From Pseudomonadota bacterium (GTDB lineage Bacteria; Desulfobacterota; Desulfobulbia; Desulfobulbales; SURF-16), in contig JAHJKA010000031.1 of the NCBI GenBank assembly GCA_018822545.1, positions 62,001 through 126,000 on the forward strand: 64,000 nucleotides of DNA. The letters run 5' to 3'. The position numbers and the translations under genes were made by a program. This document shows, in pieces, positions 4,203 to 58,497 of this stretch. Every line of letters begins with the position of its first letter. The stretch's first letter is position 1. The notes beneath the pieces were generated by a model. The model did not search any database, was not told where the DNA came from, and saw nothing but the letters and a program-made list of their open reading frames with translations.

Positions 4203-6692
4203 CTATGTATTATTTTTAACGAATACCTCTTCTTCACTATACCAATCCACGCCCATGAGCGGTCTACGCAGGCGCTCGTCATTGAGATAACGATTAAGAT
4301 CGAAGGCACCTGCTTCCAAAGGGAAATCGCGGATAAAACGCTCATAAAAAAAATCTGACATCTGCCACAGACGTGGATCAGCACGCTTGACCCCAAAGGC
4401 GTCAAAGAACTTCAGAAAACCTTTTTTTTGGGTATGGGCATCAACCAACAGGCGGAAAAACCGGGGCGCCTGACGGAAAGGAACGTCAAAATAGATATTT
4501 GGATAGCTGCCCAAAAAGCCCTTGACCACATCAACGGTGTCCTTCCCCTTGTCCAAGCGCCTATTATCGCCGGTTATAAAGGCCACAGACGAGTGATAGC
4601 GATTAAGAATCATGGTGTAAACCAGGTCCTCACCGTTATCCCGACGAAAGCGGACCTGGGCCATATCCCCCTTATCGGGGAGGGCTTGGACAAAGGGCCC
4701 TGACCAATGACTTATCTTACGAAACTCCTGATCTAAATCGTGCTCGCTGCCAATATATGAAGACAAGGTACGATCCAAATCAGCAGGATGATAATTAATG
4801 GCGTCGTATGCAATATTCACCTTTGCCGCAAAGCGCTTTTCAATGAGCAGCTTAAAAAACTCCGCCATAAAATCGTGGGATTGATACGGCACGGCACTTG
4901 GCAGCCCCTCCAGGAGCAGGGCGTCGTCGGCACTGACCTTTACCCCTGACCAGAAGGTATCATACCACCCCTGTCGCAATGCCCTTCTGCTTTCGGCAGG
5001 CATGAAGTTTAAAAATAGATGCTCTGCCTCCCGGCGCTGAAGATCCATATACAGTCGAATACTGACCTGTTCCTGGGCCTTTGAATAGACATCAAAACCG
5101 GCCACCAGATTATAGTACATGCGCTCTAAATTTCCATAATCAAGCACCCAGGCCATGCGCGGCAGGCCACCCACCGCCCCGGCCACCACCGAGGCGCTGT
5201 CGTAATGGCGGTAGACAGTTAAGAGCGGCGTACTGCCTGGATGATCCCCCGGCCAGATATCGGCAAGGCCCAGACCGGCCGGCCGCATGCTTGTATAGGT
5301 TGCAGCCTTGTCGGCAACAAACCGGTCTCGGCCTTTGAGGGTCGGGATATAGAAGAAACTATGCCAGAGACCTGCCGCCTCCACAGGAAGCCGCAGATTT
5401 TCAATATTTCGCGTCTGAAACTCTTTATCGCTTAAAAAAAGATCGGCGTCAGGGTCAAGAAAGGTGATCCAGAAATGATCATTGATGACATTCAGTGCTA
5501 CCTGGCCTTTACACACCGGGCCACGGATAAAACTCATAACAAAATAATGGGCGTCATCAAGGAGAAACTGGTAGCGAGAACGGGCAGGTATCTGACGGAA
5601 GGCCTGGAAGGGATTACTACCTATTTCCGACTCATACACCGGCGGAACCACCTCCCCATCCCAGTCGACACCGAGAAAGAGATCCTGAAAACGGCCCATC
5701 TTATCTGCACTCAAGCCGTAAAGAATATGGGTCTTGTGGACAAGAGTGGCATGGATTTTACGAAAACGATAATACAAAGCGGGGCCAGGGTTGTCGTAAG
5801 GTTTGCGGGTGGCAATCTCGTCGATTTCCTGGGGCCAAGGGGTGCGCGAACGAACCAGATAATAATAATCGCCGGGAATCTCGTCAAAATAGATATGGGC
5901 CAAAAAAAGATGCTCATAGAGATAACGCGCCATGGTGACGGTTTTAGGATCTTGTGCGTTTAAAAACCCCTCCCATTTCTTGAGTACTGCCTGCCCCTGC
6001 ACGCCGTTGCCAGGGGTTTTAAGTTCTCGAATGGTCTGCTCCGAAGGGCCTTTTCCTCCGCCAACAAGCCAGGCCTTCAAGGTCTGCAACTCTTCTTTTT
6101 TAAGCTCTGGAAAACCAAAGGGCATACCTTTGTGGGGATTTTTAGTCATGAAATCACGGAGCTCTTTGACCTCCTGTGAACAGGTAAGATCAGCGGTCTC
6201 AGAGTCATAATACCCCCTGACCTCAGGGTTTTTCTCCTTTAAGGCCAGCATCTGGAACATAAACGAATCACTGGCCAGACATTTTTTATCAGGCAGCACC
6301 GACGAGAACCCTTTCTTGGTCTGCCATTCTTCCGCATTTTTGGCATCCACAAAGAGCCGGGTGGGCTCTGCGGCATGCAGCCGTTCCGGATTATACACCC
6401 GCTCTTTCGTGGCCCCACGTGCCACGCCTTCCCAGGAGGTCATCTTCAGCTGGCACGGTGAGTTATAGCAGGAATGACAGACCACACAGCGTCTGTTAAA
6501 AATAGGCTGAATGTCACGCTGGTATTCCAGCATTGATCCCTGTTCTTGCAAGGCCGCCACTTCAGCAGGCTCTAAACCAAAGAGTGATGCTTCCTTGGCC
6601 TGAACGGTGCTGGTCCCCCAAGGCCCAAGCCCGATAAGCCACCAGAGTAGAAACAAAAGAACGGATTTGATGACCACGTTTCTGTTCTTCAC
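4203..6692 (-). CDS. cti: Cis/trans fatty acid isomerase, heme c type
   Basis: 829 residues, the usual Cti size. A signal peptide (residues about 1-32, ending VQA) is followed by a heme-c site CVVCH (69-73) and the family hallmark region with SCYNSPCQLKMTSWEG. Cti is a periplasmic enzyme that turns cis double bonds of membrane phospholipid acyl chains into trans, rapidly stiffening the membrane under solvent, heat or toxic stress. It is best known from Pseudomonas and Vibrio. The heme is needed for activity and requires the cytochrome c maturation system. The start is chosen at the only ATG that gives a signal peptide. No partner gene is adjacent apart from tpx. Confidence 0.92.
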   Translation of the reverse strand: MKNRNVVIKSVLLFLLWWLIGLGPWGTSTVQAKEASLFGLEPAEVAALQEQGSMLEYQRDIQPIFNRRCVVCHSCYNSPCQLKMTSWEGVARGATKERVYNPERLHAAEPTRLFVDAKNAEEWQTKKGFSSVLPDKKCLASDSFMFQMLALKEKNPEVRGYYDSETADLTCSQEVKELRDFMTKNPHKGMPFGFPELKKEELQTLKAWLVGGGKGPSEQTIRELKTPGNGVQGQAVLKKWEGFLNAQDPKTVTMARYLYEHLFLAHIYFDEIPGDYYYLVRSRTPWPQEIDEIATRKPYDNPGPALYYRFRKIHATLVHKTHILYGLSADKMGRFQDLFLGVDWDGEVVPPVYESEIGSNPFQAFRQIPARSRYQFLLDDAHYFVMSFIRGPVCKGQVALNVINDHFWITFLDPDADLFLSDKEFQTRNIENLRLPVEAAGLWHSFFYIPTLKGRDRFVADKAATYTSMRPAGLGLADIWPGDHPGSTPLLTVYRHYDSASVVAGAVGGLPRMAWVLDYGNLERMYYNLVAGFDVYSKAQEQVSIRLYMDLQRREAEHLFLNFMPAESRRALRQGWYDTFWSGVKVSADDALLLEGLPSAVPYQSHDFMAEFFKLLIEKRFAAKVNIAYDAINYHPADLDRTLSSYIGSEHDLDQEFRKISHWSGPFVQALPDKGDMAQVRFRRDNGEDLVYTMILNRYHSSVAFITGDNRRLDKGKDTVDVVKGFLGSYPNIYFDVPFRQAPRFFRLLVDAHTQKKGFLKFFDAFGVKRADPRLWQMSDFFYERFIRDFPLEAGAFDLNRYLNDERLRRPLMGVDWYSEEEVFVKNNT

Positions 6693-6889
6693 ATCACACC
6701 TTCAGATTTACCCATAAAAAATAAACAGCGTAATAGTCAGCAAGCACCGCCACGAGCTCAAAAACGTAGACAGAGAGTGTCACTATATTTTTATCGGGGT
6801 GAGTTATCGAGCCGGAAATTCCATTCAAGTATGCCCTTGAACCATCTCCCTGTCAAACTCTTAATAAGGGCTCTGCAGTTCTCGAAATC

Positions 6890-6951: not shown

Positions 6952-9284
6952 TTAAAACGGCCGCATCACCCAGATACCACAAGGGCAGGTGTCAGAGCAA
7001 AAGCCGCAGGCAATACATTTATCATCAGCTGAGATGTACTGGAAGGTGCCGTCGGGCAGCTTCTCGCGGCTGATGGCCTGTTCCGGACAAATGGTCTCGC
7101 AGAGATGACAGTCGCGGCAGGTACCGCAGCTCAGGCAACGGTCTGCTTCACCAGACTCAGAAACACCACATTGATCAGGGGCATAATGAGCATGGGTGAG
7201 GCTTGCCTGGGGGATAAGATTCTTGGCAAAACCGTGCCATTCTTCGCCCTTAAACTCAGCAAGGATGGCCTCAGCGGTGTTCTTGCCGGCGCCCAAGGCG
7301 TTGGTGGCAAGACCGGGACGCTCAACATCCCCGATGGCCGAGATCTTGGGATCGGAGGTGCGGCCGGCGGCATTACACTTAACCCAGGCAGCGCCACCCA
7401 CAGTAACCACCTCAACGGTGTCGGGTAGAAATTTAAGGGCAGGTACATCGCCGATGGAGATGATCACGGTCTGGGCCGGAATGAGCTGACCGGCAGCATC
7501 AATCAAGCCTTCCTCGGTGACTTCCTTGGTCTGCACCGGCCACTTGAACTTAGCACCCAGAGCCTCAGCAGCAGCCTTCTCCTTACCAAAGGCAAGGGGC
7601 TTCTGGATATCCACCAGGGTAACCTGCTCAGCGCCCAGCTTGTAGGCGTCGCAGGCCACATCACAACCAACATTACCGGCACCGATGATCACCACCTGCT
7701 TACCAACCTTGGCGGGATGATCGCTCTTGGCATCCTTCAGGAAATCAAGGGCCGGGATCACCCGCTCATGGCCTGGGAAGGGAATGGTTCGGGGCTGATG
7801 GGTACCAACGGCAACGATGACATGGTCAAAATCCTTCTTGAGCTTGGCAAAGGTGTCCTTGGTCATATCAACGCCAAAGTTGACATGAATATTTTCCACA
7901 GACATAAAACGGGCAATCTCTGACTCCCAGATGGCCTGGGGCATGCGCTCCCAGGGAATAACCTGGGCCAGCTTACCACCGAGCTTGTTGTCTTTTTCAA
8001 AGATATGGGCCTCAACACCGGCCTTGGCCAGTTGCCAGGCCGCGTTCATACCAGCAGGACCACCACCGATTATCGCTACTTTCTTGCCTAAAGAAGGGGC
8101 AGCCTTGGGAGCCGGTTGATCTTTGGCCGCCCGACCCAGCATCTGGACGTCGATCTTCTCATAACCATCTGGCGCGAACAGTTTTGCATGCAGAGATTGG
8201 GGCAGATATGACCACAAATCGAGGCGGGCAGAGGCGTATACTCCATCAGCATCTCATACGCTTCTTTACCCTTGCCCTCACGCATGAGGCGCAGGCGATC
8301 AATGGTGGGGATATGGACCGGGCAGTAATAAGCACAGGGCGCAGCCTTATCGCGGTTAGCCCAAAAAGGCTTCTTGCGGCGCAGGTCACCGCTCTCCACC
8401 ATACCAATAGGAGAACGATCCAACCCAGGGGCCAGATCACGGATAGGATCGCCACCGCCAAAACCAGGATTCCAAATCTTGTGCTTAAACTCAGCCATGG
8501 ACATGGGGCCGGTCTTCATCAAGGCCCGTTCCTGGGGAGGAATGGCATCGAGCATGGCCCACTCTTCGCGCTGGGAAAGCTCAGCAAGAAGTTCAGGACG
8601 ACCGATATTCTCAAGATACTTGGGCAGACGATCAAGCAACCACTGCCACTGCTCATCATCCGGCAGCACAGCCTTGACGTTGATCTGCGAGTAGGAGCCG
8701 TCAATCTTGCCCCGATAATAGATGGTGCCACCAACCATACCAACGCAAGGCCTATAGCCCAGGACGTTATCAGGATTTTTAGCCTCCACACCGCAAACTA
8801 TGGCAATACCGCCGCAGTTGAACTCGGCAAAGGAGTCACCGCAAGAACCTAAAACCCAGAGTTCCGGCTTATTATATTCCGGATTCCACTTGGTCATGGT
8901 CAGACCGCGGGCACCAATGGAGCCGCCGATATAGACCTTACCCTCAGCCATGGCATTACAGACACCATTAGTGGCTTCACCCTTAACGGTAATCTCGGCA
9001 CCGATATTCAACCAACCCACATCATCGGAGGCCGGGCCGTTGCAAACAATCTTGGTACCGGGCAGACCCATGCAGCCCAGACGCTGGCCACAAGGACCAT
9101 TGATCTCAATAGTGACTGGCTTGCCGCCTGACTTCAGACGCCCACCAACATTGTGCTGACCATAGGTTTCTAAAACCAGGTCATGGGACTTGGTGAAGGC
9201 CTTCTGCACCAGATCTTCAAAGATCTGCGTGCTGATCCGCTGGCCGTTTTCATCCCGTCCTTTTACGGTTATTTTCTTACTCAT
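6952..9284 (-). CDS. Glutamate synthase GXGXG domain fused to GltD-like oxidoreductase (apparent frameshift)
   Basis: The N-terminal part (about residues 1-260) is the GXGXG beta-helix domain of glutamate synthase large subunits (GGRLKSGG, GEATNGVCNAMAEG, GGSIGARG). A GltD-type module follows: Cys-rich N-terminal Fe-S region (CAYYCPVHIPT, CGHICPNLCMQNC), FAD site (IIGGGPAGMNAAW), NADPH site (IIGAGNVGCDVA), and a C-terminal two-cluster ferredoxin (CHLCETICP, CIACGFCSDTCP). The reading frame breaks near 8171-8174. Total length 2333 bases is one short of a multiple of three, and restoring one C gives CSRPDGYEKIDVQ, continuous with the family. It delivers electrons for glutamate formation with the two upstream subunits. 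Read as one gene it is about 777 residues. Confidence 0.85.
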
Positions 9285-9410
9285 ATCAAAATTCCTTTAG
9301 TGACTTACCCCAGCAAGGCTGCCTTTATCAAAAAACAATTTAAAAACTTGTTTTGCAACTATTGACTTCCACCTACTGCCAAGTCACTTATCCTTTCCAC
9401 TTTATGCGGG

Positions 9411-11048
9411 TTAGCAAACGTAACGGATGTTCAGACGATCAGCCGCGTCCTTATCGGCAATACCTAAGGCGTCAGACATACCAATGGGCAGACTCTGGGA
9501 ACGACCCAAAGGTGCCATGACCTTCTTGACCTCAACCTGGATGGCCTGGAAGGTTTCCACCAGGCGGTGGGCCACATCATCAGGATCAAGGCGACGATAG
9601 ATCTTTGGATTCTGACTGGTAATACCCTTGGGACAGATACCAACGTTACAGACATTGCAGCGATTCTTCTCAGAGCCAAGACAACCCGCCGCTGACTGCA
9701 TGATGAACTTGCCCATGTGGACTCCGGAGGCACCCAACATGATCAAGGCCAGGGCGTTTTGCACCACGTTGCCGTTCTTGCCGACACCGCCGGCCGCAAA
9801 AATGGGGATCTCGTTCTGCTTGCCCTGCTTACATAAATCAAGGTAGCAGTCACGGACGTTGGAGGCGATGGGATGGCCGGTGGCATTTAAAGAAATGTCA
9901 TAGGCGGCACCGGTGCCGCCGTCGATACCGTCAATCATCAGGGCCGAGGCATAGGGGTTACGCACCAGGTTATTGAGCACCGATTTCGCCGAGGTGGAAC
10001 CGGAGATTTTCGGATAGACCGGCACCTTGAAGTTCCAGGCCATGGACATGGACTGGATCATCTTCATAACCGACTCCTCAATGGAGTACAGCGTCTGGTG
10101 CACGGGCGGGCTGGGCAAATCAACACCTTCAGGCACACCGCGCAGACGGGCGATGAGCTTGGAGACCTTGAACCACATGAGCAGTCCACCGTCACCGGGC
10201 TTGGCGCCCTGACCGTATTTAATCTCAATGGCAGCCGGATCACATTGCATCTCGGGAATAGCGCGGATGATCTCATCCCAGCCAAAATATCCGGAGGCCA
10301 CCTGGAGGATTATATATTTAAGGAAGGGACTCCTGAGAACCCAGGGCGGACAGCCACCCTCACCCGTGGCCATAACCACCGGAATACCCAAGACCTCGTT
10401 ACAGTAGGCCACACCCTGAAGGAGACCGAGCCACATATTAGGTGACAGGGCGCCAAAGGACATGGAACCAATGATAAAAGGGAAGATCTCCCGCACCGGC
10501 GGAATCCATTCACCGCTCAGTTTGCGGCGAACATACTCCTCAGGGGGCAGCACCCGACCAAGCAGGGTGTTGTAGGCAAACTCATGGCGCCCGGCATCAA
10601 GGGCCGGATCGGTGAGCATGGATATCCGGTTGAAGATAATGCGATCAAGGAGACTGCCACCCGGCTCGTTACGGCGACCGCCACGCTTGGTGGCATCACC
10701 GCCGGCCGTGGCCTGGAAACGGTAACGGTCGTTCTCATTGAAGACCGGCCCGATGGCCTCGTTGGGACAGACCATGGCGCACGATCCGCAGCCGATGCAA
10801 CGCCGCCCCACATCGGTATTTTGCCGGATGCCCACGAATGTTTTAAAAGAACTGCCCCGTTCCGAGGAGTTCAAAACAATCTTGGGCATGCGTTTCCGCA
10901 TGTAGGTAAGTTTTAAGGTATTCACCGGGCAAACGGCCGCACATTTACCACAGAGGGTACAGCGGTCTTCACGGTGCTGAATAATCCAGGGCAGGTCGTT
11001 GGGACTTAAGCTGCCTGGACGAGAGGGAATTGATCGAATTGAGACCAT
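9411..11048 (-). CDS. Glutamate synthase central/FMN domain with N-terminal ferredoxin
   Basis: 545 residues. Two N-terminal [4Fe-4S] motifs (CTLCGKCAAVCP, CIGCGSCAMVCP) precede the FMN-binding alpha/beta barrel of glutamate synthase (IIGSMSFGALS, ATGEGGCPPW, IKYGQGAKPGDGG, DGIDGGTGAA, AAGGVGKNG). The 3Fe-4S cysteines appear as CLGSEKNRCNVCNVGICP. This is the archaeal-type GltB2 that makes L-glutamate from 2-oxoglutarate and ammonia. The start at 11048 has AGGAG about 10 bases ahead and overlaps the end of the upstream gene by about 43 bases, suggesting translational coupling. It forms one operon with the genes on both sides. Confidence 0.92.
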   Translation of the reverse strand: MVSIRSIPSRPGSLSPNDLPWIIQHREDRCTLCGKCAAVCPVNTLKLTYMRKRMPKIVLNSSERGSSFKTFVGIRQNTDVGRRCIGCGSCAMVCPNEAIGPVFNENDRYRFQATAGGDATKRGGRRNEPGGSLLDRIIFNRISMLTDPALDAGRHEFAYNTLLGRVLPPEEYVRRKLSGEWIPPVREIFPFIIGSMSFGALSPNMWLGLLQGVAYCNEVLGIPVVMATGEGGCPPWVLRSPFLKYIILQVASGYFGWDEIIRAIPEMQCDPAAIEIKYGQGAKPGDGGLLMWFKVSKLIARLRGVPEGVDLPSPPVHQTLYSIEESVMKMIQSMSMAWNFKVPVYPKISGSTSAKSVLNNLVRNPYASALMIDGIDGGTGAAYDISLNATGHPIASNVRDCYLDLCKQGKQNEIPIFAAGGVGKNGNVVQNALALIMLGASGVHMGKFIMQSAAGCLGSEKNRCNVCNVGICPKGITSQNPKIYRRLDPDDVAHRLVETFQAIQVEVKKVMAPLGRSQSLPIGMSDALGIADKDAADRLNIRYVC

Positions 11049-44317: not shown

Positions 44318-45712
44318 ATGCCCCAGCATGCCGTTTTTGAAGACTATTTCTGCGACAACTGGAAAGACGTTATTGACAAAATGACCGAAGGTTTGATGCT
44401 CGTCGACCCTTCAGGCAAGATCCTTTTTGTCAATACGGCCCTGGAAGACCTCCTCCTCTATAAACGTGATGAACTGGTGGGCCAGCGTTGTGATTTTCTC
44501 GAATGCGATAGCTGCTTTGATAAACGCCAGAAACAGGGCAACAAACATTGTGCTCTTTTTCGCAAAGGTGACGTCCGTAACCTCAAATGCACCTTCAAAC
44601 GCAAGGATGGCAGCAGGGTCAACGTCCTCAAAAACGCCACGGTCCTCACCGACTCCACTGGCAAAGTGGTGGCCGGCGTTGAAAACCTCACCGACATGAC
44701 CGCCATTGTCGCCCAGGAAAAGGTGATCACCGACCTGCGCAAACACATTGCCAAAGACGACGGCTTCCAGGGTATCATCGGCAAAAGCCAAGCCATGAGC
44801 CAGGTCTTTGAGCTGATCAAGAGTGCAGCCCAGTCCGATGCGCCGGTGGTGATTTATGGCGAAAGCGGTACCGGCAAGGAGCTGGTGGCAAGCGCCATCC
44901 ACGCCTTAAGCAAGAGACAAGACGCCCCGCTTATCAAGGTGAACTGTGCGGCCCTTAATGAAAATCTGCTTGAGAGCGAACTTTTCGGCCACATCAAAGG
45001 TGCCTTTACCGGCGCTGACCGTTCCCGAATGGGTCGTTTTGAAGCGGCCAATAAGGGCGTCATTTTCCTCGATGAAATCGGCGACCTTCCCCTGGCCACC
45101 CAAACCAAACTCCTGCGGGTTCTCCAGGAGCAGGAGATCGAACGGGTGGGCGATCACCAGCCCATTGCCATTGATGTCCGGATTATTGCCGCCACCAACA
45201 AGGACCTCGGCAAACTCATGGCCGAGGAAAAATTCCGCGATGATCTTTACTACCGCATTGGCGTCATCCCCATTATTTTACCACCCCTGCGTGATCGTCA
45301 AGAAGATATTCCCATGCTCATCGAGACCTTTCTTGACCGGGCCCGCCTGAAAACAGGCAAGGATATCACTACCATCACCAAGGCGGCCCTGGATCTCATG
45401 GTCACCTACCCCTGGCCCGGTAATATCCGTGAACTGATCAATGTGATCGAATATGCCTTTGTGATCTGCCCCGGTGGCGTCATCACCCCGGAGCACCTCC
45501 CCCACCACTTCGTCAATACAGATACCAGGTCATCAAGTGTCGGTATTTCCAGAAAAAAACCGAGCAGCGACCGACGCCAAGTCCTGCTGGACACCTTGAA
45601 AGAAACGGGTGGCAATAAATCTGAAGCGGCCCGTCTCCTCGGGGTAAGCAGGGTGACGCTGTGGAAGCAGCTCAAGAAATATGAGATCACGGTGGGCAAG
45701 GCTATTCGCTGA
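44318..45712 (+). CDS. PAS-sigma-54 activator, probable regulator of the octaheme cytochrome
   Basis: 464 residues: N-terminal PAS (about 15-130), AAA+ domain (about 150-390) with Walker A GESGTGKE, GAFTGA, Walker B FLDEIGD and R-finger region FRDDLYYR, and a C-terminal Fis-type helix-turn-helix (NKSEAARLLGVSRVTLWKQL). The PAS holds a Cys set (CDFLECDSCFD, then HCALF) that could sense redox or bind metal. No receiver domain, so it probably senses a small signal directly. It is divergent from the cytochrome gene, which has a matching promoter. Confidence 0.93.
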   Translation: MPQHAVFEDYFCDNWKDVIDKMTEGLMLVDPSGKILFVNTALEDLLLYKRDELVGQRCDFLECDSCFDKRQKQGNKHCALFRKGDVRNLKCTFKRKDGSRVNVLKNATVLTDSTGKVVAGVENLTDMTAIVAQEKVITDLRKHIAKDDGFQGIIGKSQAMSQVFELIKSAAQSDAPVVIYGESGTGKELVASAIHALSKRQDAPLIKVNCAALNENLLESELFGHIKGAFTGADRSRMGRFEAANKGVIFLDEIGDLPLATQTKLLRVLQEQEIERVGDHQPIAIDVRIIAATNKDLGKLMAEEKFRDDLYYRIGVIPIILPPLRDRQEDIPMLIETFLDRARLKTGKDITTITKAALDLMVTYPWPGNIRELINVIEYAFVICPGGVITPEHLPHHFVNTDTRSSSVGISRKKPSSDRRQVLLDTLKETGGNKSEAARLLGVSRVTLWKQLKKYEITVGKAIR

Positions 45713-53013: not shown

Positions 53014-53449
53014 CCTATGTCCCCCGCTTCATGCCTGGCACCAGCCAAGTTCGGCCTGACTGGTGAGAGCAAGAAAACTCCTCGCTCATCTGCTTGCCAA
53101 AACAAACTGATTATTGCTGCCTAGCGAAGCCAGCCCTTCAAAACCCATTATCATCATAGCGCAATTTGCAGGGGTATCAGATTATATTCATCATCCGGGG
53201 CCAGGCAATACGCCGTAAATCCAATACCCCTAGAGATCAACCTGATCAATTGCTGGCTACCCCATCCCCAAAAAATGGCTTATTTTATGCCCGCCCCAAT
53301 GGTGAAAAAAAATAAATCGAATTATACCAGTAAGTTAACAATATACACATATATGGCTTTAATTTTGCTTATATAATTTACCGAGAAGAAGGTTCAGAAA
53401 AATTTATAGCGCAACGTCCGGCAAAGTCTGACCCTGACTTGAGCGGATT
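53014..53449 (+). other. 436-base AT-rich gap without a gene
   Basis: No open frame with a ribosome-binding site was found on either strand. TATATAAT-like boxes near 53365-53375 (TTATATAATTT) may be the -10 of the downstream PilZ-PAS gene, but no good -35 is visible. Confidence 0.4.
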
Positions 53450-55264
53450 ATGCTAAAACACAATCTTCCATGTGAGTTCATGAAAAAGAAAGATGAGCGC
53501 CGTAACTTTACCCGAATGCCCTTCAATCTTAGCTTACGACTCCGTGAAAGCCTGAGCAATCTCACCTTTCCAGCCATTAGCACAGATATACATGCGTCAG
53601 GCATCCAGCTCGAAACCGATGCACCCATTTCTCCCCGCATGAGTATTGAAATATGGCCGGAAGATTACGGACTTGATGCCCACTATGCCCATGGCGAAAT
53701 CTGCTGGGTCAAACCACCGCTCAATGGCAACCGAAAAAACCGTTGCGGCATTAGCTTCAAACGTCAGATTGACTGGCCCATACCCCTGCCTGTTTTAACT
53801 CAAAGATATTCTGCCTATAAGGGCGAAATAGCCCCGCCAAAATTCATTCTGGACAGTATCGTTGATGGCATCTTCACCGTGGACCAGAATAAAAGAATTA
53901 CGTCATTCAACAAGGCCGTTGAACTGCTGACCGGCTGGTCGGAAAAAGATGCCCTGGGCAAGATATGCAGCGAGGTGTTTAAATCAAACTGCTGTGACAC
54001 CAATTGCGTGCTGACAGAAAGCATCCGCAATCAAAGAGCCGTAGAAAACCGCACCGTTTTTATTACCCACGCCAACGGCAAACGAATCGGCGCCACAATC
54101 AGTGCGACCCCACTCTTTGACGAGGATAATAACGTGGTGGGCGGCGTTCAAGTTTTTCGCAGCGTCCAATCCCTGCTTGACCGAGCTGTTATCCTCGACA
54201 ATATCAGTGATGGCGTCTTCACCGTGGATACCGAATGGAAGTTGACGTCCTTCAACAGGGCGGCTGAGCAAATTACCGGCCGCTCCCGCGCTGATGTCAT
54301 CGGCAAACCGTGCCATGAAGTTTTCCAGGCTAGTATCTGCGGCAAAACATGCGCCATAGCCGCCAGTATCAATAGCGGTCAACCCGACAAGAACCGCTGC
54401 ATCCATATCAAGAATGTCGACGATGTCAAGGTTCCCATAAGCATCTGTGCCGCCCCCATGTATGACACTGCCGGCAACCTTATCGGCGGCGTCGAAACAT
54501 TTAGAGACCTTCGTCCGTCAACGGCCCTTGAGACCCATCAGTACAAACAGAGACGAATCGGTGATATTATCACCAAGAGTCCGGCCATGAATAAGGTCTT
54601 TGATATTCTCCCTGATATTGCCGAGAAAGATCAGAATGTCCTGCTCGTCGGTGAATCAGGCACAGGAAAACAACTGATCAGCAGAGCCATCCACAAACTG
54701 AGCCCCAGGAAGGATGGCCCGATGGTTGTGGTGAAATGCGGTGAACTCTCAGATCCGATCCTCAAAGAACAACTCTTTGGTGCCTCAGTGCTTAAAAACG
54801 GTGGCGCCATACCTCTGGGCGGCGATTTATTCAATTCCGCCCGAGGAGGCCTGCTCTTTCTCGACCAGATCGGCAAACCACCCCTGGCTATCCAGGTCAA
54901 ACTACTACAGCTCCTTGAACGCGACCCTGCTGAAACAAATGTGCGGATTATTGCCACCTCGGCAACAGGCAGCGAGGATAAATCATTTTACAAACTCAAC
55001 GTCACCAAAATAGAAATGCCTTCCCTTCGTAACCGGGTTGATGACATCCAACTTCTTGTCGAACATTTCCTGGAAGAACTCAACCGAGAGAAAAAACGTG
55101 ATGTCTGGGGTATTTCAGAAGAGGCCCTTCGCACCCTCATGGCTTACGATTTTCCTGGTAACATCAGAGAGTTGCAAAACATCGTCGAGTACGCATCAAT
55201 CCTGTGCGTCAGCGGCATGATCCAGACCCAGCACCTTCCCCCCGCCCTCATCGCCGACCAATAA
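53450..55264 (+). CDS. PilZ-PAS-PAS-AAA+ protein with degenerate sigma-54 activator domain
   Basis: 604 residues (a start at 53480, MKKKDERRNF, is also possible). PilZ domain (about 15-120) with RxxxR (RNFTR) but DIHASG where DxSxxG is expected. Two PAS domains follow (about 130-250, 250-365), each with a Cys pattern (CCDTNC, CGKTC). The AAA+ domain keeps Walker A GESGTGKQ, but GAFTGA is replaced by KNGGAIPLGG, Walker B is FLDQIG (Glu lost), and the REDLYYR finger region is reduced to KSFYKL. There is no C-terminal helix-turn-helix. It cannot act as a normal sigma-54 activator and may be a signalling scaffold. Confidence 0.85.
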   Translation: MLKHNLPCEFMKKKDERRNFTRMPFNLSLRLRESLSNLTFPAISTDIHASGIQLETDAPISPRMSIEIWPEDYGLDAHYAHGEICWVKPPLNGNRKNRCGISFKRQIDWPIPLPVLTQRYSAYKGEIAPPKFILDSIVDGIFTVDQNKRITSFNKAVELLTGWSEKDALGKICSEVFKSNCCDTNCVLTESIRNQRAVENRTVFITHANGKRIGATISATPLFDEDNNVVGGVQVFRSVQSLLDRAVILDNISDGVFTVDTEWKLTSFNRAAEQITGRSRADVIGKPCHEVFQASICGKTCAIAASINSGQPDKNRCIHIKNVDDVKVPISICAAPMYDTAGNLIGGVETFRDLRPSTALETHQYKQRRIGDIITKSPAMNKVFDILPDIAEKDQNVLLVGESGTGKQLISRAIHKLSPRKDGPMVVVKCGELSDPILKEQLFGASVLKNGGAIPLGGDLFNSARGGLLFLDQIGKPPLAIQVKLLQLLERDPAETNVRIIATSATGSEDKSFYKLNVTKIEMPSLRNRVDDIQLLVEHFLEELNREKKRDVWGISEEALRTLMAYDFPGNIRELQNIVEYASILCVSGMIQTQHLPPALIADQ

Positions 55265-55461
55265 GGGCGGCGGGAAGCACAGAATCCTCACTAAAAATAC
55301 TGGCAATCCGCCAACGAATATTTTACGCTATTTTCATGCAGCATACCTGAATGCCCTTGCAAGGTTCTGTTCAAGCAACGCTGCAACTCTTTCCCGGAGT
55401 TCACAACCGTTGTTATGTACCCTATAACCCGCATATTTCAGATTTTTGTGGAGGTTCTGCG

Positions 55462-56079
55462 ATGGAAGAGCTTGCCGATATCGAGATAAACAAATTCAAC
55501 AACATCTGGAAGGTTATTACTGAAATAGGCCTGCAAGAAAGACATTTTAACGATCTACAAAGCAGGTACCGTACCCTGGCATCCACCTGGATCCTGGCGG
55601 CCTTTTCAGCCATCGGCTTTCTCATCGCGCAGGAAAAAACAGTCTTTTTAGCCTCTCCTACCTTATTCATTGTCAGCGGTATTGGTGTGGCGCTCAGTAT
55701 TGGCATCATCCTCCTCTGGAATCTCGACATCATGGTCTACCACCAACTTTTAGCAGCGTGTTTTCGGGAAGGACTTCTCCTCGAAGAAAAACATCCCTGG
55801 CTGCCTCGGATCAGGATACGGATGATGGCGCGCACCTCCGGTCAAGGGGTCATTCCCCGCGTTGTCTGGTTTTATATAGTGGCCAGTAGCCTCGGACTTT
55901 TAATCAGCTGTGGCGCCGTCACCTCTTTGGCTTATAACAACAACGACTTACAACTCCTTTCCCTTGCGGGCCACCTGACCCTCATTTCCCTCTTAAGTTT
56001 CTCTATTTTAAAACAATCCGGCTCAGAAAAAGTCCCAGTCCTGACAGAAGACGGATCAGGTCCCTCAGGCCGTCGCTGA
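55462..56079 (+). CDS. Four-helix membrane protein of unknown function
   Basis: 205 residues from ATG 55462, chosen for its GGAGG site; the open frame starts at 55351. Soluble helical N-terminus (GLQERHFNDLQSRYRTLAS), then membrane helices at about 41-58, 66-88, 137-156 and 165-185 with a basic cytosolic loop. The layout recalls small effector or sensor membrane proteins but no family is certain. It is followed 55 bases later by another membrane-anchored protein in the same direction. Confidence 0.65.
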   Translation: MEELADIEINKFNNIWKVITEIGLQERHFNDLQSRYRTLASTWILAAFSAIGFLIAQEKTVFLASPTLFIVSGIGVALSIGIILLWNLDIMVYHQLLAACFREGLLLEEKHPWLPRIRIRMMARTSGQGVIPRVVWFYIVASSLGLLISCGAVTSLAYNNNDLQLLSLAGHLTLISLLSFSILKQSGSEKVPVLTEDGSGPSGRR

Positions 56080-56134
56080 CCTGAAAACAGGGGACCTCAT
56101 GGTTCTTTTTTATAAGACATAAAAGGGGGCGGGC

Positions 56135-57241
56135 ATGACAGACAAAGAAAGAATTGAAGACGAACAACAGGTGAGTCAAGACAGCAAAACACCGGACATC
56201 TGGTACAAACTCCGCTCAGCAGGAGGAATAGCCACCGCAGTCATGGTGGCAGTTATCGGTACTGCGGGTTCGTACGTCATGAATAAGCAGCAGACTCTGT
56301 CCACCCGGGCTCAGCTCTACACCGAACTCATGAGTCAACGTGAGAACGCTGAAAGTTCGGTGCGCAAAGACATGTTCCAACAAATTCTCTCGTCGTTTCT
56401 TAGCAAGCCGACAGGTTCGGTCTGTATCCTGGAGCAGATCGATGAAGAGTTGCTCCGCCTTGAGTTGCTGGCCAGAAATTTCCACGAAATGCTCGATATG
56501 GAACCACTCTTTCTCCATGTCCTGCTCAAAATCGTCGGAGAAATACCCCGCCTGCAGGAACCATTACCAAGCCAAGACAACGCACAAGCCTCGGCACTTG
56601 CCACCCCCCAAGGCCGGCTTTATGCCCTCTGGAAAGGGCATAAAGGTGATATAGCCTGGAAAGACTTCAAGATGAAAATGATGCGCAGGAAACTCGATCG
56701 CCTCATCCGAATCGCCAACCGCATCACCAAAAAACAGCTGGAAAGCTTAAGCGGTGTCCAAGTCAGGCAACGGCTCACCATTGATTTAAGCAAAACCTGC
56801 CAGGATACGCGGCCTACAGAGCCTCTTGAGCACGAGTGTGACATGGGCGGAGCGGTGAACCAGCCGATTTTCTCCATGCGCTTAGATGCAGGTATAGAAC
56901 GGCAATTCACCGTATCAATAAACCACTCCTACCCTTTATGGAACCAAGTCAGAGTCAAGGTTGAGGTCCAGAAAACAAAGGAGGAAAAGAAAACAGACCC
57001 AAACGGCCAAGATGTCCACATGAGCGAATTCTGGTTAGGCTATTTTGACTTTCCTCTGGCAGAAAACACCTTTCTCTCTGACAAAGAAAGATATGCCGTT
57101 GTTCTGGATGAAATAAACGATACTAAGCAAGAAGCCCTTATCTCCGTTATCTATTTCCCAGCCTCCGCCGCCGGTTTGAAAGAAAAATCGTTCTACCAGC
57201 AAAAACTTATCACCACCCTGTTAGAGCACAAGAGCTTTTGA
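56135..57241 (+). CDS. Membrane-anchored protein of unknown function
   Basis: 368 residues. One membrane helix (about 28-46), then a long helical region (QTLSTRAQLYTELMSQRENA, and so on to about 215) and a C-terminal beta-rich domain (about 235-355). The ribosome-binding site GGGGGCGGG is unusual, so start strength is uncertain. It probably forms a unit with the four-helix protein upstream. I do not recognise either; no nuclease, protease or NTPase motif is visible. Confidence 0.65.
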   Translation: MTDKERIEDEQQVSQDSKTPDIWYKLRSAGGIATAVMVAVIGTAGSYVMNKQQTLSTRAQLYTELMSQRENAESSVRKDMFQQILSSFLSKPTGSVCILEQIDEELLRLELLARNFHEMLDMEPLFLHVLLKIVGEIPRLQEPLPSQDNAQASALATPQGRLYALWKGHKGDIAWKDFKMKMMRRKLDRLIRIANRITKKQLESLSGVQVRQRLTIDLSKTCQDTRPTEPLEHECDMGGAVNQPIFSMRLDAGIERQFTVSINHSYPLWNQVRVKVEVQKTKEEKKTDPNGQDVHMSEFWLGYFDFPLAENTFLSDKERYAVVLDEINDTKQEALISVIYFPASAAGLKEKSFYQQKLITTLLEHKSF

Positions 57242-58138: not shown

Positions 58139-58497
58139 CTCTCCCCCTTTTTAAAAATAAAATGGAACAAAACAGCGGATTCACCTTACCCGAAAACCAT
58201 AAATTCCAGCAAGCAAAGCCCTTGAAAACCATCACCTTTATTCATTTGCCAATTACCCCGATGTGCCGTACTTTCAGGCGATGCCTTCCCTGAAACCACC
58301 CACATTCCTCACCCTTGTTTTCTCGACCCTGCTTTTTTTGGCTAAAGGGGTCATTGATGCAATAAAGGCCATCACCTTCACCGAGGCGCACGTGGAAAGG
58401 CAGCGATTGCCTTTCTTCCGGGTTTGTGGGAGAAGATAAAAGAGCCCTTGGCCTTGGCTGCTTAAAAAATCTACAACTGAGAACACCTGCCAGCCCC
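58139..58497. other. Gap before umuD without a clear gene
   Basis: A 52-codon frame with one hydrophobic stretch opens at 58279 on the plus strand but has no ribosome-binding site. No classic CTGT-n8-ACAG SOS box was found, although LexA sites in this group may differ. Confidence 0.35.

Follow-up and report, generated by a model that had tools for sequence, protein, structure and literature searches.

A PilZ-PAS-PAS-AAA+ protein lacking the working motifs of sigma-54 activators, a possible modulator of its intact paralogues

The open reading frame at positions 53450-55264 (+ strand) of the 64,000-nucleotide stretch of DNA analysed here (the window) encodes a protein with PilZ, PAS, PAS, AAA+ and AAA+ lid domains, in that order. 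An initial annotation, made from the sequence alone, described it as a protein stripped of its sigma-54 functions and proposed a signalling scaffold or decoy linked to c-di-GMP. The locus raises the question of whether such a gene is simply dead, or whether a protein that has lost the means of activating transcription has been kept for some other purpose.

Domain organisation and the motifs lost

Translation probably begins at the internal ATG at 53480, since all the orthologues share a Met at this position and what precedes it is unconserved. In the alignment, the motif MK[KNT][KN]DERR at this Met is common to all four orthologues. Pfam confirms the PilZ domain of the initial annotation (24.5 bits, against a cut-off of 22.5) and matches two PAS domains and AAA_lid_14 (90 bits). 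Sigma54_activat scores 99.2 bits, matched over model positions 1-120 of 168 only, and Pfam finds no helix-turn-helix (HTH) domain in the protein. The features of the gene, all on the + strand, are as follows.

53480-55264, +, coding sequence of the degenerate activator, 594 residues from the conserved Met (the listed reading frame begins at 53450)
53495-53767, +, PilZ domain; RxxxR present, DIHASG at the DxSxxG position
53840-54169, +, PAS domain 1, with cysteine cluster GKxCxxVFKSNCCxxxC
54185-54514, +, PAS domain 2, with cysteine cluster GKPCHEVFQASICGKTC...NRC
54566-55024, +, degenerate AAA+ alpha/beta subdomain, from Pfam, family-conserved sites and fold match
54650-54670, +, Walker A, GESGTGK, intact in all four orthologues
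54734-54736, +, switch Asn replaced by Lys (N429K) in all four orthologues
54773-54823, +, loop 1; GAFTGA/GA[FY]TDA gone, length unchanged
54851-54874, +, Walker B, LLFLDQIG; E to Q (LAH in the congener G002)
54908-54940, +, loop 2 (pre-sensor I); nine residues deleted
54944-54997, +, sensor I and arginine-finger segment; sensor I Asn gone, nine residues deleted, first finger Arg gone
55028-55255, +, AAA+ lid; sensor II Arg (PGNIRELQN) present, and terminus of the protein, without HTH

The motifs lost here are those with roles in hydrolysis, intersubunit catalysis and sigma-54 contact (PMC7175178; PMC2745333). A GAFTGA-type loop 1 is missing from all four orthologues. In the window's protein, LKNGGAIP stands where relatives have GA[FY]TDA or GAFTGA. 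The Walker B LDE has become LDQ in three of the four, and in G002 the Asp is gone too. The sensor I Asn is replaced by Ala, the arginine of the FR pair that forms the first finger is gone, and the second finger is Lys or Arg among the four. The LRxR motif, Walker A, the sensor II Arg and the lid are all retained. All four proteins terminate at the same point, and downstream of the gene no convincing remnant of an HTH was found in the four genomes, the best tblastn match being of 17 residues, on the opposite strand (E 0.009).

The losses listed in the initial annotation (GAFTGA, the Walker B Glu, the arginine-finger segment and the HTH) are therefore all borne out, as is the retention of Walker A. 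It overlooked the loss of the switch Asn, the sensor I Asn and nine residues of loop 2, and its statement that the overall length of the AAA+ domain is kept does not fully hold, given the two nine-residue deletions.

The pattern of loss was analysed using sites that are at least 95% identical among intact relatives, scored as kept or lost across all four orthologues. In the AAA+ alpha/beta subdomain, 32 of 69 such sites are kept and 27 lost in all four; the corresponding numbers are 41 and 2 of 45 for PAS2, and 24 and 3 of 29 for the lid. Judged from these residues, it is the catalytic and sigma-54-contact positions in which the losses concentrate. Some of the replacements (N429K, E441Q, R487Q and D511K) are fixed in all four orthologues, which suggests a new role rather than decay. 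ATP hydrolysis and activation of sigma-54 RNA polymerase are expected to be absent, and neither sigma-54 contact nor DNA binding through an HTH would be expected of this protein. The predicted fold of the AAA+ part matches the AAA+ domains of bacterial enhancer-binding proteins, with FleQ, ZraR and NtrC1 as top matches. The monomer model has a mean pLDDT of 82 and a pTM of 0.42, and on account of the latter was used domain by domain and not for domain arrangement.

The cysteine clusters of both PAS domains (window positions 53957-54013 and 54302-54409) are conserved, and common to the intact family. They may point to redox or metal sensing.

Conservation, origin and promoter

The same losses were sought in related genomes, as the initial annotation had recommended, and found in all three congeners. 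Orthologues are present in each of these genomes, at 86, 83 and 79% identity, and carry nearly every loss in common. They also share a neighbourhood, with a DUF2238 gene upstream, and a metallo-beta-lactamase-fold gene, the gene at 58426 and its neighbour downstream. Between the degenerate gene and the metallo-beta-lactamase-fold gene, the window has two further genes without a Pfam match (55351-57241); nothing matching them was seen in the corresponding place in G001, G002 or G003. An operon with this pair was considered and rejected, because the pair is missing here in G001 and G002 and nothing matching it was seen in G003.

Pairwise dN/dS among the four orthologues is 0.06-0.14 overall and 0.10-0.17 within the AAA+ alpha/beta part. 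By comparison, the values are 0.10-0.16 for the intact paralogues of clades A and B (described below) and 0.11-0.23 for a neighbouring gene. Selection on the degenerate gene is as strict as on its intact paralogues.

The degenerate form occurs in all four genomes of the genus and in none of 18 other genomes of the family. Among the genome-contig matches, none was seen beyond the genus, nearly all of them keeping a GAFTGA-like loop by pattern; the eleven matches that the loop pattern missed were inspected, and keep the Walker B DE and an HTH-like C-terminal end. A tree of 23 proteins groups the four degenerate ones in a single clade (support 100/100) on a long stem branch of 0.89 changes per column; the sister of this clade, at moderate support (89/88), is intact clade A. 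The degenerate form would thus appear to be an old paralogue of a PilZ-PAS-PAS-AAA+-HTH activator, arising by an old duplication.

Upstream of the gene there are two further conserved features.

53252-53290, +, conserved block with a CCA-N5-TGG core, from the four-region alignment; putative enhancer (activator-binding) site
53354-53369, +, sigma-54 -24/-12 promoter, TGGCTTTAATTTTGCT

When the four upstream regions are aligned, TGGC-N7-TTGCT is found at the same place in all four genomes, within an intergenic region that is poorly conserved (24% of ungapped columns identical). In 20,000 column shuffles, TGGC-N7-TTGCT did not occur, and GG-N10-GC occurred in 5. There are two strict promoter matches in the 64 kb, including this one, with 0.9 expected by chance. 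Each of the four genomes has one rpoN gene. The conserved block is about 70-100 bp upstream of the promoter and is a candidate enhancer. No second copy with 0-2 mismatches was found in the four genomes, and two places in G002 resemble it with three mismatches.

The idea of a retained, non-catalytic regulator, already implicit in the initial annotation, is supported by the occurrence of the same losses in four species, by purifying selection and by the conserved promoter.

Intact paralogues and the link to c-di-GMP

The nearest relatives of the degenerate protein are intact PilZ-PAS-PAS-AAA+-HTH activators with a GA[FY]TDA loop, encoded at other places in these genomes. At least two further relatives with this loop and an HTH are present in every congener. 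Intact clades A and B (for example G003:C127, G000:C6, G001:C76 and G002:C19) have the domain order, PAS cysteines, Walker A and lid in common with the degenerate protein, at about 50-57% identity. In them, unlike in the degenerate protein, the Walker B Glu and both finger arginines are present, as are the GA[FY]TDA motif, loop 2 and the HTH. DVU2106 of Desulfovibrio vulgaris and VfmH of Dickeya likewise have a loop of the GAFTDA variety. DVU2106 (loop GAFTDA; PMC4641369) activates the sigma-54 orp promoters in a reconstituted E. coli system (PMC3897727), so that this loop can be functional. Both are complete activators, unlike the degenerate protein: DVU2106 recognises palindromic sites in DNA, and VfmH carries an HTH of the Fis type (PMC3897727, PMC10714721).

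Good -24/-12 sites are also found upstream of several intact relatives (in L152, upstream of 11565 on the - strand, and in L146, L147, L052 and L053). These sites match 5-6 of 7 flanking positions, hinting at a sigma-54 cascade around the PilZ-PAS-PAS-AAA+-HTH family.

The activator at 44318 was put forward in the initial annotation as a partner for hetero-oligomers. It is a poor candidate and was set aside, being only about a third identical and from another branch, when the same genomes encode PilZ-PAS-PAS-AAA+-HTH paralogues at about 50-57% identity. The window's own assembly (85% complete) yielded no clade A gene; the only such relatives found there are one of clade B, truncated at a contig edge, and a multi-PAS paralogue. 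The clade A paralogue G001:C39 (L149, 12862-15006) has a single in-frame TAG within PAS2, which is either a sequencing error or a recent inactivation. Because of this stop, and because clade A was not found in the window's own assembly, there is no single partner carrying PilZ that could be seen intact across all four genomes. The oligomer interfaces may moreover have diverged, identity to the paralogues being about 50-57%. Another member of clade A, G002:C19 (L135, 4490-6289), is without PAS domain 1 and keeps PilZ, PAS2, AAA+ and HTH.

As for c-di-GMP, the RxxxR motif of the PilZ domain is present in all four orthologues as ERR[NH]F[TS]R. The second motif, [DN]xSxxG, is replaced by DIHAxG in all four, and its Ser is replaced in most intact relatives as well. 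Because DxSxxG is changed to DxHxxG, binding of c-di-GMP by the degenerate protein is uncertain. Clade A genes adjoin GGDEF and histidine kinase genes. In L140, an intact PilZ-PAS-PAS-AAA+-HTH gene has a PAS-HD protein (HD_5, HD-GYP type) on either side, at 4731-6737 and 9035-10726. The degenerate gene itself adjoins neither GGDEF or HD-GYP genes nor an intact paralogue. The two diguanylate cyclases that the initial annotation had seen in the window are indeed there as GGDEF proteins, but at a distance of about 30 kb. The link to c-di-GMP is only indirect: intact relatives do adjoin GGDEF or HD-GYP genes, but the second PilZ motif is changed to DxHxxG in all four orthologues.

Possible modes of action

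Hetero-oligomers between activator paralogues have rarely been reported (PMC9542535). The closest precedent is FleT of Rhodobacter (Cereibacter) sphaeroides, likewise a paralogue of sigma-54 activators without a DNA-binding domain, which acts by joining FleQ in hetero-oligomers (PMC11655674, PMC3162934, PMC9542535). The degenerate protein has both of the corresponding features, namely no DNA-binding domain and a homologous intact partner in the genome. FleT differs in being needed for activation and in having no sensor domain at its N-terminus, where the degenerate protein keeps PilZ and two PAS domains. The catalytic and sigma-54-contact motifs of the degenerate protein are gone. VnfA paralogues also hetero-oligomerise (PMC9542535), and the HTH-less TrlR and CerN are antagonists of TraR and CerM (PMC11655674).

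On the basis of the losses, found together with strong selection and a conserved sigma-54 promoter in four species, the degenerate gene is probably not dead, and its product is probably a sensor that blocks or tunes intact sister activators. That it does so by forming hetero-oligomers with the intact paralogues, most likely with a negative effect, we regard as about evenly balanced between true and false. The scheme would be that a signal-sensing pseudo-ATPase is made from the sigma-54 promoter, and that its PAS and AAA+ interfaces let it enter the oligomers of intact paralogues. In the mixed ring it would provide no arginine finger for its neighbour, no GAFTGA loop for sigma-54 and no anchor to DNA, so that the activator would be dampened or conditioned according to the signal sensed by the degenerate subunit. 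With the gene itself behind a sigma-54 promoter, the arrangement would amount to a brake within the sigma-54 network, of the feedback or feed-forward kind. The retention of sensors, nucleotide pocket and lid against the loss of the working parts is what might be expected of a subunit that enters a ring and does no work there. Of this, the conservation of the gene, what it has lost and kept, the promoter footprint and the presence of intact paralogues are observations, and from them we infer ATP binding, hetero-oligomerisation, the negative sign and the identity of the partner; in G002, where the Walker B Asp is also lost, binding of Mg-ATP may be dispensable. The most specific form of the proposal, which we offer tentatively, is of a natural 'poison subunit' in the rings of sigma-54 activators: a signal-sensing cysteine-PAS/PilZ pseudo-ATPase, made from a sigma-54 promoter, that would feed back on the activators from which it descends.

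Several other explanations have to be set against this. Decay of an activator gene into a pseudogene might be read from the loss of nearly all the motifs that define a working sigma-54 activator and from the long stem branch, but is hardly credible and was rejected. Four open orthologues at 79-86% identity with the low dN/dS noted above, a common endpoint, a conserved promoter and the lack of any recent nonsense remnant all argue against it. The initial annotation had named intact homologues in the same position as the sign of a simple pseudogene; instead, the orthologues in that position share the losses, and the intact paralogues sit elsewhere in the same genomes. It is also very improbable that the protein serves as a sink for c-di-GMP or nucleotide, or as a decoy gated by c-di-GMP through PilZ. 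The RxxxR motif and the GGDEF or HD-GYP neighbours of intact relatives would fit such a role, but the second PilZ motif is altered in all four orthologues, the gene's own neighbours are not c-di-GMP genes, and the genome already has 18 PilZ matches.

A stand-alone role in signalling is a rather doubtful reading, though one with several observations in its favour. Here the targets of the PAS and PilZ domains would lie outside the sigma-54 activators, and the remaining AAA+ part would serve only as a scaffold, dimeric or gated by nucleotide. By family-conserved sites, PAS2 is better kept than any other part, the cysteines of the PAS domains persist, the gene stands alone without an adjoining paralogue, and Walker B is completely lost in G002. 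Such a role does not readily explain why lid and Walker A, for which a bare PAS scaffold has no need, are kept under selection, nor why the gene lies behind a sigma-54 promoter. A positive co-subunit in the manner of FleT and FleQ, altering the choice of DNA site or supplying a signal to a mixed ring that still activates, would agree with the retention of lid and nucleotide pocket, and FleQ/FleT, HrpR/HrpS and VnfA1/VnfA3 are all co-dependent or co-activating pairs (PMC9542535). This nevertheless seems unlikely, because with all the sigma-54 contact loops, the first arginine finger and the switch residues gone, the degenerate protomers would be passive in the ring.

A conserved paralogue with its sensors and nucleotide pocket in place, but without the residues for hydrolysis, sigma-54 contact and DNA binding, offers a clean test of whether inert subunits control sigma-54 activator rings, and the conserved sigma-54 promoter makes a feedback loop directly testable.

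VpsR, TyrR, DhaR and HupR, which act as DNA-bound regulators with an HTH, differ from the degenerate protein, which has none. They resemble it in being NtrC-type AAA+ proteins without a working GAFTGA (PMC3162934), and sigma-70 dependence has been reported for TyrR, DhaR and HupR (PMC3162934). The degenerate protein, put forward above as a 'poison subunit', carries the Walker B Glu-to-Gln change that is used in the laboratory to block hydrolysis. PspF E108Q and the NtrC1 Walker B mutant have the same change as three of the four orthologues, and are engineered single changes rather than natural proteins. Structures of PspF E108Q have been solved (4qnm, 4qnr and 4qos).
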